This document shows, piece by piece, positions 10,256 to 13,303 of a stretch of 21,299 nucleotides of DNA (its first letter is position 1; the number at the start of each line of letters is the position of its first letter). This DNA comes from a virus. The stretch spans positions 1 through 21,299 of the IMG/VR virus record IMGVR_UViG_3300022074_000447. One strand, 5' to 3'. A program made the position numbers and the translations under genes. The notes beneath the pieces were generated by a model. That model saw nothing but the letters and a program-made list of their open reading frames with translations, made no database searches and was not told where the DNA came from.

Positions 10256-11374
10256 TTAATTACTTTGCGTGATAGTAATAACACTATCACTTCCGCCGTT
10301 TATTTTTATTATATTAGATACTCCGTCTTGTATCAAAATAACTGTATAAGCATTACTGCCATCTAAATCTACTCTGACGCTTTCATTTACTTCTCTGCGT
10401 AAACTAACAACATTACCTGTAATCAAAGCAGTAATCTGTGTATCTGGATCTTTACCAAGCAAAGTACCTGCTATTTGTGTGCTAGTAGCTTGTGCTAACT
10501 GATCCTCTTCTTCTGCAACGGCTAGTGCATCAAGCACATTTAGTAAATCTTCTAAGTAGTTTACATCAAGGTAATTTATATCAAGTTCTGTAAAGTCTAA
10601 ACTATCTTCTTTTAGATAATCTTCTGCAAGATAATCTATATCAAGATCGTTAAAATCAAGTACGCTATCTGTTTGTGCTGTTGTAGCTTCCTCTTCTATA
10701 ACTGCTTCTTCTTTAGGTGGTGTTACGATCAACATATTATCTATAACATCAAGTGTCAGATCTAATACTACTGGTTTGGTTGGTGTTGATTCAAAAACGC
10801 TTACAGTAGTTGCCTGGTAAGGTTTGTTTAGTGTTACTGTTCCCATGCCTGTAGTTACTAATATCTCACCACTTGATAAACCATATTTATCAGGCAAGAG
10901 AATAATTAAACTACGACCAAGTTCATCAACTGTGGCCGTAAAATCAGTTCCACGAATAGCTATATTTGCTGTAGGTGTTTTAAGTTTAATGTTTTGTTTG
11001 TCTATACGATTTAGATTTCCTGTGATGAATCTGGCTGTACCAAGTCCAAAGGTAAGTGCCATCTTTGATTTACTTGGGTCAGGATCATAGATATATTCAT
11101 CTATTAGCAGTTCTGAAAACTCTGTGAGTTTTACAACAGAATCATCTAAAAAGGTGATAGCCATACGGCCATTTTTTGTTATCGCTTCATCATTACTTTG
11201 TATAGCAAAATCAAGATCAGCATTGTAGGTTTTATCTCTGACTATTTGCGCCGAGCCGTTAAGTTCAGATATATCCCCAATACTAGCAGCTTGTGCTTGT
11301 ACCTTGATCGTTTTGGATGACGCAAACAGTAGAAGCAGCAGTACCAGAAACGGATATAATTTTAAGCCAGTCAT
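10256..11374 (-). CDS. Secreted FecR-domain protein with curlin-like C-terminus
   Basis: The product is 372 residues. A signal peptide is clear (hydrophobic core 8-18, probable cleavage after VQAQA near residue 29), so it is periplasmic or exported. The FecR domain spans about 35-195; its hallmark is TPTANIAIRGTDF at 133-145. An acidic region (222-290) contains a duplicated unit (LDFNDLDIDYL, LDFTELDINYL). The last 35 residues (SNAYTVILIQDGVSN, then SDSVITITQ) resemble curlin repeats. There is no TonB-box or sigma-factor-regulator membrane segment as in classical FecR. It lies between the curlin-like gene and the CHASE2 cyclase. The start overlaps the curlin-like gene by 92 bases and lacks a clear ribosome site, but the signal peptide requires it. 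Role inferred: periplasmic sensor or scaffold. Confidence 0.85.
   Translation of the reverse strand: MTGLKLYPFLVLLLLLFASSKTIKVQAQAASIGDISELNGSAQIVRDKTYNADLDFAIQSNDEAITKNGRMAITFLDDSVVKLTEFSELLIDEYIYDPDPSKSKMALTFGLGTARFITGNLNRIDKQNIKLKTPTANIAIRGTDFTATVDELGRSLIILLPDKYGLSSGEILVTTGMGTVTLNKPYQATTVSVFESTPTKPVVLDLTLDVIDNMLIVTPPKEEAVIEEEATTAQTDSVLDFNDLDIDYLAEDYLKEDSLDFTELDINYLDVNYLEDLLNVLDALAVAEEEDQLAQATSTQIAGTLLGKDPDTQITALITGNVVSLRREVNESVRVDLDGSNAYTVILIQDGVSNIIKINGGSDSVITITQSN
10550..10667 (-). repeat. Acidic YL-rich repeat in the FecR-domain gene
   Basis: Residues about 238-257 and 258-277 of the FecR-domain protein are two copies of a 20-residue unit with pattern LDFxxLDIxYLxxxYLxxx. The DNA copies share AATCTATATCAAG-like blocks with substitutions. 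It would give an acidic, amphipathic linker between the FecR domain and the curlin-like tail. Confidence 0.6.
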
Positions 11375-12014
11375 TATCTTGTGTACTCAGTTGTGAGATA
11401 TTAAAAGTTCTTGAACCGCCAGTATGATCTAACCAAAAATATCCACCTGCTGAGGCATTAACACCTGTACCTGTATAAGTTACTGTATTATCAGAGCCAT
11501 CTATATCCATGTAGTTAGTAGCACCATCAATATTTATATTTGATGTAACTGTGTTATTTGAGCCATTAATAATCCAGTCCAAGTCAAGTGATGCAGCTAA
11601 TGCTGTTGTACCTTGATTTAATGTAAATGTATTACCGCTACCTGTTACATCAACATTTTGGTTTGAGCCGTCAGCACTATAAGTATCTGTAGGATCTACC
11701 TGGATAGTAAATGTGTTAGTGCCGCCATCAAACTCGTAGAAACCTGTAAATGTGTCAGCAAATATATCACCAAGAAATTTGTTAGTTGCACCAATCATGT
11801 TGATATCTAAAGTCATAGTGTTTCCATCCAAATCAAATGCGTTTACACTACCTGCTGTGGAGTTAAGTCCACCAATAATATTAGATATACCTAGTTGTTC
11901 TAGGTCTATATTTGCACCAGTACCAGACTGATCTACATATATTTCGTTGTCAGCCGCGTAACTTGTCCATGCACTCAGCATCACAAGTAGGCTTATCAAT
12001 TTTATTTTCATCAT
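11283..12014 (-). CDS. Secreted curlin-repeat-like (amyloid-type) protein
   Basis: The product is 243 residues with ribosome site AAGGAG nine bases before the first of two ATGs. A signal peptide ends at SYA (residue 20). The mature start NEIYVDQSGTGANIDLEQLG, then ISNIIGGL, follows the curlin pattern of hydrophobic-x-hydrophobic-x-Q-x-G-x-x-N. Later loosely repeated units (GNTMTLDINMIGATN, SNNTVTSNINIDGATN, SDNTVTYTGTG) keep Asn/Gly turns and alternating hydrophobics but have Asp or Asn in place of Gln. This suggests a beta-solenoid or amyloid subunit, the presumed substrate of the CsgG-like pore encoded just upstream. Two Cys near the C-terminus (231, 243) are unusual for curlins. It is longer and less regular than CsgA (151 residues) or CsgB. 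Family assignment is moderate; export is well supported. Confidence 0.75.
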   Translation of the reverse strand: MMKIKLISLLVMLSAWTSYAADNEIYVDQSGTGANIDLEQLGISNIIGGLNSTAGSVNAFDLDGNTMTLDINMIGATNKFLGDIFADTFTGFYEFDGGTNTFTIQVDPTDTYSADGSNQNVDVTGSGNTFTLNQGTTALAASLDLDWIINGSNNTVTSNINIDGATNYMDIDGSDNTVTYTGTGVNASAGGYFWLDHTGGSRTFNISQLSTQDNDWLKIISVSGTAASTVCVIQNDQGTSTSC

Positions 12015-12852
12015 GTAATTCTACTCCTTGGTCTGTATTTTGTAAAATCCAAAAACCCCGATCATAACCAGACTGAATTATTTCTAATACACCGCCCTCA
12101 ATCGCTTTCATTAGTGCTATAGTTGATGATTCATTTCGCGCGTTTCCTAGTTCTATTTCTACAAGTTCGGTATTTGCTTCAATAAACCTAAATACATCCT
12201 CAGATTTACCATAGCTAAATATAGTCTTTTGACTTAATACTTCAAGCAATACTTCGCCTGTAGCTACAGACACCATTCTAAGCGAAACTGTAATATTATC
12301 CTCTCTATACTGTACGCTGTTACCAATTCCTAAGTATCTAGCACCTATACCACCAGATTCTAGGTTAGCTTCGTAAGATATAACAGCACCCTCTATCAAT
12401 ATACCAGCAAACAATAAAGGTCTTAGTGCTTTCTTTTTCTCTTCTTCAGTTGCGGTTTGCTCTCTTGCGGATCTTATAAGCTGTCGTTCTTTGGTTAGGT
12501 TATCTAGTCCTACTCTTTCAACTACCCTAAAAAACTTTCCGTTACCAGCGTGTTTTAAGGCTCTTATAAGTAGTGCGTTTGGTTGTTGTGTTATGGCCGT
12601 GCTAAATAAAGCAAACTCGCTGTTGCTTTTTCTTTGACCAGTTTGATCTGTAAAAGCAGTTGGATATACAGCAACAACAGGACTAACCTGTGGTATAGGT
12701 ACATTTTTAAGTTCTACAGATTGTAGATCTTGTATTGATACTATGTCTTTGCTTGAAAATCTTTGTTCGTAAGTATCTTCGTACTGGTCAAATATAGAAC
12801 AGCTAGAAAGTGAAAGTACCAATAGGTATTGTAATTTCTGTAACTGTGCCAT
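11950..12852 (-). CDS. csgG: CsgG-like curli secretion channel lipoprotein
   Basis: The product is 300 residues (E. coli CsgG has 277). It has a lipoprotein signal with lipobox LSSC, Cys18 being the lipidated residue. Family landmarks are present in order: VVAVYPTAFTDQTGQ (59-73), ERQLIRSARE (122-131), IEGAVISYEANLESGGIGAR (153-172), YLGIG, VSVATGEVLLEV, FRFIEAN, and near the end MKAIEGGVLEIIQSGYDRG with FWILQN. These match the E. coli protein closely from memory. It should form the nonameric outer-membrane pore that exports unfolded curlin subunits. In the constriction segment, the Phe equivalent to E. coli Phe56 is kept (LFSTAI), but the Asn55 position is Leu and Tyr51 is not obvious. A C-terminal extension with two Cys is additional. 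It overlaps CsgF by 50 bases and the curlin-like gene by 65. Confidence 0.93.
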   Translation of the reverse strand: MAQLQKLQYLLVLSLSSCSIFDQYEDTYEQRFSSKDIVSIQDLQSVELKNVPIPQVSPVVAVYPTAFTDQTGQRKSNSEFALFSTAITQQPNALLIRALKHAGNGKFFRVVERVGLDNLTKERQLIRSAREQTATEEEKKKALRPLLFAGILIEGAVISYEANLESGGIGARYLGIGNSVQYREDNITVSLRMVSVATGEVLLEVLSQKTIFSYGKSEDVFRFIEANTELVEIELGNARNESSTIALMKAIEGGVLEIIQSGYDRGFWILQNTDQGVELHDENKIDKPTCDAECMDKLRG

Positions 12853-13303
12853 CTGCTTCTGTTATTTTTAAGGTTAATGTTACGCCATCACTTGTATATT
12901 CAATAGTGTTGCCCTCTAGTGTTATTGTACCTGCATTTTGTGGCGTTTCTCCAAACAGATTGTTGACCAACTGCCTAGACAACTCTGCATATACTCTTGA
13001 TTCTAGGTTACGCATAAACCTAGCTAATGTGCTGTTTTCTTTTTCTCTTTCTATTTCATCTTGTAAGGCTTTGATTTCTTCTTTGATAGTTAGCTTACGG
13101 CTAAACTCTTGGTTCTCTATTGTTAGATAATGAGAGGATGTACCTACACCATTAAAACTAGGTGACTTAAACTTGTGTACTATTTGGTCTGCTTTGACAT
13201 TTTCTACAAAAATTCCAACACACAAAAGTATGCCTATAACAGCAACTATTTTAATTATTGTATCTTTTTCTTTTTCCGAAAATTTAATCTTTCCTTTGGT
13301 CAT
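12803..13303 (-). CDS. csgF: CsgF-like curli assembly factor
   Basis: The product is 166 residues (E. coli CsgF has 138). An unusually long charged N-terminus (1-15) precedes a hydrophobic segment (16-33) and a probable cleavage after VKA (38). The mature start DQIVHKFKSPSFNGVGTSS parallels CsgF, whose N-terminal strand with FRNPNFGGNP inserts into the CsgG pore. A helical, charged insertion (about 68-98) is followed by LESRVYAELSRQLVNNLFG, matching the CsgF helix that ends in QSQILGGLL. The C-terminal beta region (GNTIEYTSDGVTLTLKITEA) matches CsgF's DGQLQLNVTD part. It precedes csgG, as in curli operons where csgF and csgG are adjacent. It overlaps both neighbours. Confidence 0.85.
   Translation of the reverse strand: MTKGKIKFSEKEKDTIIKIVAVIGILLCVGIFVENVKADQIVHKFKSPSFNGVGTSSHYLTIENQEFSRKLTIKEEIKALQDEIEREKENSTLARFMRNLESRVYAELSRQLVNNLFGETPQNAGTITLEGNTIEYTSDGVTLTLKITEADGTVTEITIPIGTFTF

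Follow-up and report, generated by a model that had tools for sequence, protein, structure and literature searches.

A conserved curlin-like end on a phage FecR-domain protein suggests a link between curli fibres or their export pore and a CHASE2 adenylate cyclase

The FecR-domain protein of a curli (type VIII secretion, T8SS) cassette in a marine phage ends in a conserved curlin-like segment, which suggests that this protein is a physical connection between the neighbouring enzyme that makes cyclic AMP and the fibre or its export pore. The cassette is found in a virus record, and the whole stretch of DNA analysed, 21,299 nucleotides (21.3 kb), is referred to as the window. In the reading we prefer, to which we assign a probability of about 0.4, FecR would be a periplasmic adaptor of the CHASE2 cyclase, with a curlin-mimicking tail that docks and reports export or assembly, and with cAMP as the output. 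The narrower proposal, that the adaptor, phage-carried and bacterial alike, is a direct amyloid-to-cAMP sensor acting through a built-in mimic of the amyloid subunit, is put forward more tentatively.

Curli cassettes carried by phages occur widely in the ocean. The one in the window was identified from its Pfam matches and coordinates, which give the order csgF, csgG, curlin, fecR and cyclase, with all cassette genes on the minus strand:

12803..13303, minus strand: CsgF (PF10614, E 1.6e-16)
11950..12852, minus strand: CsgG outer-membrane pore lipoprotein (PF03783, E 3.2e-46)
11283..12014, minus strand: curlin-like fibre subunit, 243 aa (curlin motif; Pfam Curlin_rpt weak, E 0.59)
10256-11374, minus strand: FecR-domain gene fecR, 372 aa
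8504..10255, minus strand: CHASE2-domain membrane adenylate cyclase (PF05226, E 1.2e-29; PF00211, E 7.4e-23)

The start codon of the cyclase abuts the fecR stop, and in this phage no curlin gene lies between the two. Podovirus-like structural genes (portal, major head protein and terminase) were found around the cassette; searches of the window for Rfam families and tRNA returned none. At least 80 close viral relatives share the cassette (80 retained from 593 matching viral stretches), as do Pelagibacter phage HTVC008M and Methylophilales phage Melnitz. CsgG was present at 122/122 fecR loci with enough upstream sequence, and the cyclase at 97 of the 99 with enough downstream sequence. Two loci, L153 and L164 (L164 3871-11776), carry the same FecR family followed by 5-8 kb of downstream sequence in which no cyclase was detected. 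The codons of the fecR signal peptide lie out of frame within the 3' end of the curlin gene, in a 92-nt overlap (window 11283-11374), and further overlaps join csgF to csgG (12803-12852) and csgG to the curlin gene (11950-12014). Synonymous divergence (pS) in the fecR/curlin overlap is 0.11, as against 0.61-0.66 across the other parts of fecR.

The curlin-like protein itself gave an all-beta, solenoid-like AlphaFold2 model (pLDDT 73), and its VIA matches are mostly beta-solenoid proteins together with SufB/SufD (Z 7-17), an arrangement common enough that it is no proof of family. In HTVC008M the product of a second curlin gene (L082:7025-8347), labelled 'hypothetical protein', has curlin repeats behind a PA14 domain, and amounts to a predicted adhesin-like head on a curlin array. 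In L122, L127, L130 and other HTVC008M-type loci, a gene of ~110-135 aa often replaces this long second curlin between fecR and the cyclase, and its product ends in C-x-[ILM]-T-[VIL]-x-Q. An origin of the FecR tail by fusion with a second curlin gene was considered and rejected, since relatives possess the tail plus a separate second curlin.

The residues quoted by the earlier sequence-only reading match the 372-aa ORF (10256-11374, minus strand) exactly. The following parts were distinguished in its product:

11291..11374, minus strand: probable Sec signal peptide, residues 1-28 (from sequence; pS 0.11)
10760..11287, minus strand: FecR domain, residues 30-205 (PF04773, E 5.3e-9; PupR-like fold)
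10481..10729, minus strand: acidic linker with LDIDYL-type repeats, residues 216-298 (AlphaFold2 pLDDT mostly <50; conserved in the alignment)
10259..10474, minus strand: C-terminal beta domain, residues 301-372 (six predicted strands, pLDDT about 82; AlphaFold2 model m4b34f95b9f27)
10259..10357, minus strand: curlin-like end, residues 340-372 (hhalign shuffle and window tests; conservation; pN/pS 0.153)
10283..10348, minus strand: exact minimal curli repeat X6QXGX2NX10, residues 343-364, YTVILIQDGVSNIIKINGGSDS (motif scan against background)
10265..10285, minus strand: terminal curlin-type strand S-V-I-T-I-T-Q, residues 364-370 (C-terminal motif counts)

Assignment of the FecR domain rests on a PF04773 score of 36.9 bits at residues 66-151, against a Pfam gathering cut-off of 24, and on a model that matches the periplasmic signalling domain fold of FecR/PupR (6ovk, Z 15.4, rmsd 2.8, 138 aligned; 4m0n, Z 14.6). 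The AlphaFold2 model, built on a 90-sequence alignment, predicts the FecR domain and the C-terminal domain with confidence and gives the latter six strands at 314-370; the linker between these two folded parts (about 216-296) is of low confidence and probably flexible. The last three of the six strands constitute the curlin-like segment, and the domain as a whole is predicted to be compact. The curlin-like character of the segment 338-372 proposed beforehand holds; the structural unit in the model is larger and begins near residue 301. Foldseek and VIA returned no significant match for the tail domain, a part that these searches barely test, and the weak VIA rows for this region (FnIII-like and alpha-crystallin, Z 2.4-3.5) do not imply a novel fold. 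The matches in BFVD were only two other phage FecR proteins, and solved structures searched by sequence with the FecR and curlin alignments contained no convincing relative.

The minimal curli repeat has been defined as X6QXGX2NX10 (PMC3521004). One exact copy is present at residues 343-364, at the same distance from the end in 69/69 members of the window clade, against a background of 0.069 per 1000 aa in the ORFs of bacterial loci; of 129 FecR ORFs from outside the cassette, none has it within the final 60 aa. The core of this copy, QDG[VI]SN[IV][IV] in window-clade tails, resembles QLGISNII, the best conserved of the repeats in the clade's own curlin (residues 34-55 of the 243-aa protein, window 11850-11915), the two having Q-x-G-[IV]-S-N-[IV] in common; the curlin repeat of HTVC008M-type loci reads QDGQNNT, unlike the window-clade tail. 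The HTVC008M-type FecR tail is without QXGX2N and retains the [N/S]-x-I-x-I-x-Q end and a Q-to-Q spacing of 21.

Profile comparisons with hhalign gave a corresponding picture. The last 33 columns scored 19.3 against the curlin-2 profile, the best of 120 column shuffles reaching 14.0, and with two curlin-1 profiles 0/120 column shuffles reached the observed tail score. When 155 windows of the FecR, CsgG, CsgF and cyclase proteins were ranked by curlin profile score the tail came first, and it fitted better than 153 other stretches of the cassette proteins; this is the stronger control, because shuffling breaks not only patterns specific to curlin but also the alternation within strands. Analysed apart, window-clade tails beat the shuffles with curlin-1 profiles and HTVC008M-clade tails did so with the curlin-2 profile, while the tail of the bacterial locus L166, a single divergent sequence, did not. 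The similarity is nevertheless weak in absolute terms. Pfam Curlin_rpt (PF07012) matched none of four tails at E up to 10, in the same scan in which HTVC008M curlin-2 matched at 5e-8; Pfam, NCBIfam and PHROGs put no curlin label on the tail; and hhalign's own probability for tail versus curlin is only about 4%.

Such values could also arise if the tail were an ordinary beta domain whose alternating hydrophobic/Asn/Gln strands came to look like curlin by chance or through edge-strand chemistry. The low hhalign probability and the missing Pfam match are in line with convergence of this kind, as are AlphaFold's prediction of a compact domain of strands instead of an array of repeats, the HTVC008M-type tail without QXGX2N and the failure of the one divergent L166 tail to beat shuffles. 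It accounts poorly for an exact published repeat in every window-clade member at a background of 0.07 per 1000 aa, for the top rank of the tail among the scored windows, for two clades that beat shuffles independently, and for a likeness to the partner curlin that is clade-specific. Convergence is considered unlikely, and the tail is likely homologous to curlin repeats. The view that the tail is curlin-like and differs from the FecR domain before it is borne out by the exact minimal repeat and by scores above both shuffles and other windows.

Both the [N/S]-x-I-x-I-x-Q ending and the Q-to-Q spacing of 21 are recurrent features of 138 FecR proteins. Among the 90 aligned sequences, I366 never varies and Y343, Q349, I368 and Q370 hardly do; pN/pS, at high pS, is 0.15 for the tail as compared with 0.14 for the FecR domain. 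The tail is under purifying selection. A curlin-type C-terminal motif, [NSTDGH]-x-h-x-h-x-Q, was present in 93/96 FecR ORFs at loci with detected csg genes and in 18/124 at loci without them. Those 18 belong to the same FecR family, on contigs that are cut or in which csg genes went undetected. Consequently, the total for the csg-linked family is 111 of 113 complete FecR ORFs, the exceptions being one broken frame and one near miss. The motif was found in 0/106 other FecR ORFs; both totals were recounted from the lists and leave aside an unrelated FecR from a bacterial contig with csg genes. It was also found in 25/3,024 other distinct ORFs, 22 of these 25 being cassette curlins (identity judged by sequence). 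The proposal that the tail joins the sensor-like FecR to the fibre-forming side of the cassette is likewise supported. Since the csg-linked FecR proteins form one family, the association of tail and csg genes reflects descent and not many independent events.

The sequence-only reading had staked its proposal beforehand on the tail being kept in relatives, and it is kept in cassettes at about 30-45% FecR identity, including one on a bacterial chromosome. The loci concerned, L166 and L167, are metagenome-assembled contigs of Caulobacteraceae with the order csgF-csgG-curlin-curlin-fecR-CHASE2 cyclase. In L166 the cassette sits amid bacterial metabolic genes, among them methylmalonyl-CoA mutase and acyl-CoA dehydrogenase, and the C-terminal strand of its FecR, IINVTQD, is of the same kind as in the phage tails. 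These bacterial cassettes are compatible with the alphaproteobacterial origin proposed in PMC9599517. Among 299 genomes of the order and 385 of the class, the only full-length match was this bacterial version, in the centre genome itself, and the tailed FecR thus appears rare in sampled Alphaproteobacteria.

The main rival to the adaptor reading is that the tail anchors or nucleates fibres. FecR would remain periplasmic, its linker would pass through the CsgG pore, and the tail would lie outside as the first rung for curlin stacking, so that fibres are tethered or started there and part of the job of CsgB is done. The predicted architecture would allow this: the ~80-aa low-confidence linker between two folded parts would permit threading through CsgG, and its extended length could span the pore. 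In addition, the tail ends as the curlin C-terminus does, the most complete curli repeat is held by the window clade, in which no curlin follows fecR, and a cell-surface anchoring domain, 5ix9, can be aligned to residues 29-122 of the model (Z 6.7, rmsd 2.2, 72 aligned), although a Z in this range is common. However, AlphaFold's compact tail domain would need to unfold for passage through the pore, and an anchor leaves the adjacent CHASE2 cyclase unexplained. The tail also persists in cassettes with two curlin genes (HTVC008M, Melnitz and L166), and hence the suggestion that it takes the role of a missing CsgB does not generalise; a partial version of it is favoured by the more complete repeat of the window clade. 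We regard an anchor or nucleator as somewhat unlikely.

A further possibility is that FecR stands in for CsgE, conferring specificity from the periplasm in a secretion system that lacks CsgE, with its curlin-like end gating or loading CsgG. The HTVC008M and Melnitz cassettes have no gene annotated as CsgE, and no CsgE was recognised by Pfam among the cassette genes of the window; its absence from pelagiphage cassettes is reported in PMC9599517. FecR is periplasmic and linked to csgG wherever enough sequence is available (122/122), and E. coli CsgE recognises curli repeats (PMC4389571). Conversely, family scans show no similarity of FecR to CsgE, and alphaproteobacterial curli systems without CsgE have been described with no FecR mentioned (PMC3521004). 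A CsgE-like function appears improbable on this balance.

In the adaptor reading, which is the simplest, the FecR domain would partner the periplasmic CHASE2 sensor of the adjacent adenylate cyclase, and the C-terminal mimic of a curlin repeat would dock either on subunits of curlin or, as curlin passes, on the CsgG/CsgF pore. Occupancy of the tail would then signal the state of curlin export or assembly to the cyclase, which would turn this signal into the cAMP level of the infected cell. Counted against it are the loci L153 and L164, which keep fecR without a detected cyclase, the low absolute similarity of the tail to curlin, and the fact that csg-linked FecR proteins are a single family. 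The role given earlier to the cassette FecR and cyclase, iron-dependent regulation, was a guess. The curlin-like FecR end offers a specific and testable link from fibre or pore to the cAMP enzyme, and such a link would explain why the cassette genes travel together.

Canonical Fec-type FecR has FecI and FecA as partners; its N-terminus is a cytoplasmic anti-sigma domain, and it spans the membrane by a single helix. The window protein shares the FecR-domain fold with the FecR/PupR anti-sigma regulators (6ovk, Z 15.4) but carries a signal peptide, not an anti-sigma domain, at its N-terminus. Only PF04773 scored above cut-off, the neighbours are a curlin and a CHASE2 cyclase, and the cassette contains no recognised homologue of FecI or FecA. 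A role as iron regulator was therefore rejected as unsupported: the protein has neither the anti-sigma domain nor the transmembrane helix of the Fec type, and the Fec partners are missing.

The five-gene phage cassette and the pairing of FecR with CHASE2 are already known. The pelagiphage type VIII secretion (curli) cassette, described in 2022 (PMC9599517; also PMC7029224 and PMC9004378), has the same genes in the same order: csgF, csgG, curlin, fecR, in some cases a second curlin, and adenylate cyclase. It differs from the window phage in that a second curlin may follow fecR. In the available text of PMC9599517 FecR is treated as an iron-dependent regulator, a curlin-like tail is not mentioned and the word 'C-terminal' does not occur; nor did a search of full-text literature accessible without subscription yield a description of a curlin-like FecR end.

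With CsgB and the curlin repeats (PF07012), the FecR tail shares one minimal curli repeat and a terminal curlin strand. It differs from them in having at most one to one-and-a-half repeats, behind a FecR domain and without a Pfam match, and the protein is not of CsgB-type architecture, i.e. a short secreted protein made entirely of repeats.

The closest parallel in signalling is provided by the Campylobacterota adenylate cyclases paired with FecR (PMC9239204) and by the Burkholderia BiofilmReg operon, in which a LysM-FecR protein stands beside a CHASE2 histidine kinase (PMC5192318). There, likewise, a secreted FecR-domain protein adjoins a CHASE2 membrane signalling protein, but FecR has LysM or other ends that are not curlin-like, and no csg genes occur in the loci examined. 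As FecR recurs beside CHASE2 signalling proteins without csg genes, in several loci examined and with other ends, the extra FecR domain appears to change with context. This suggests a general rule, in which the extra domain on a periplasmic FecR tells what the neighbouring CHASE2 receptor monitors.
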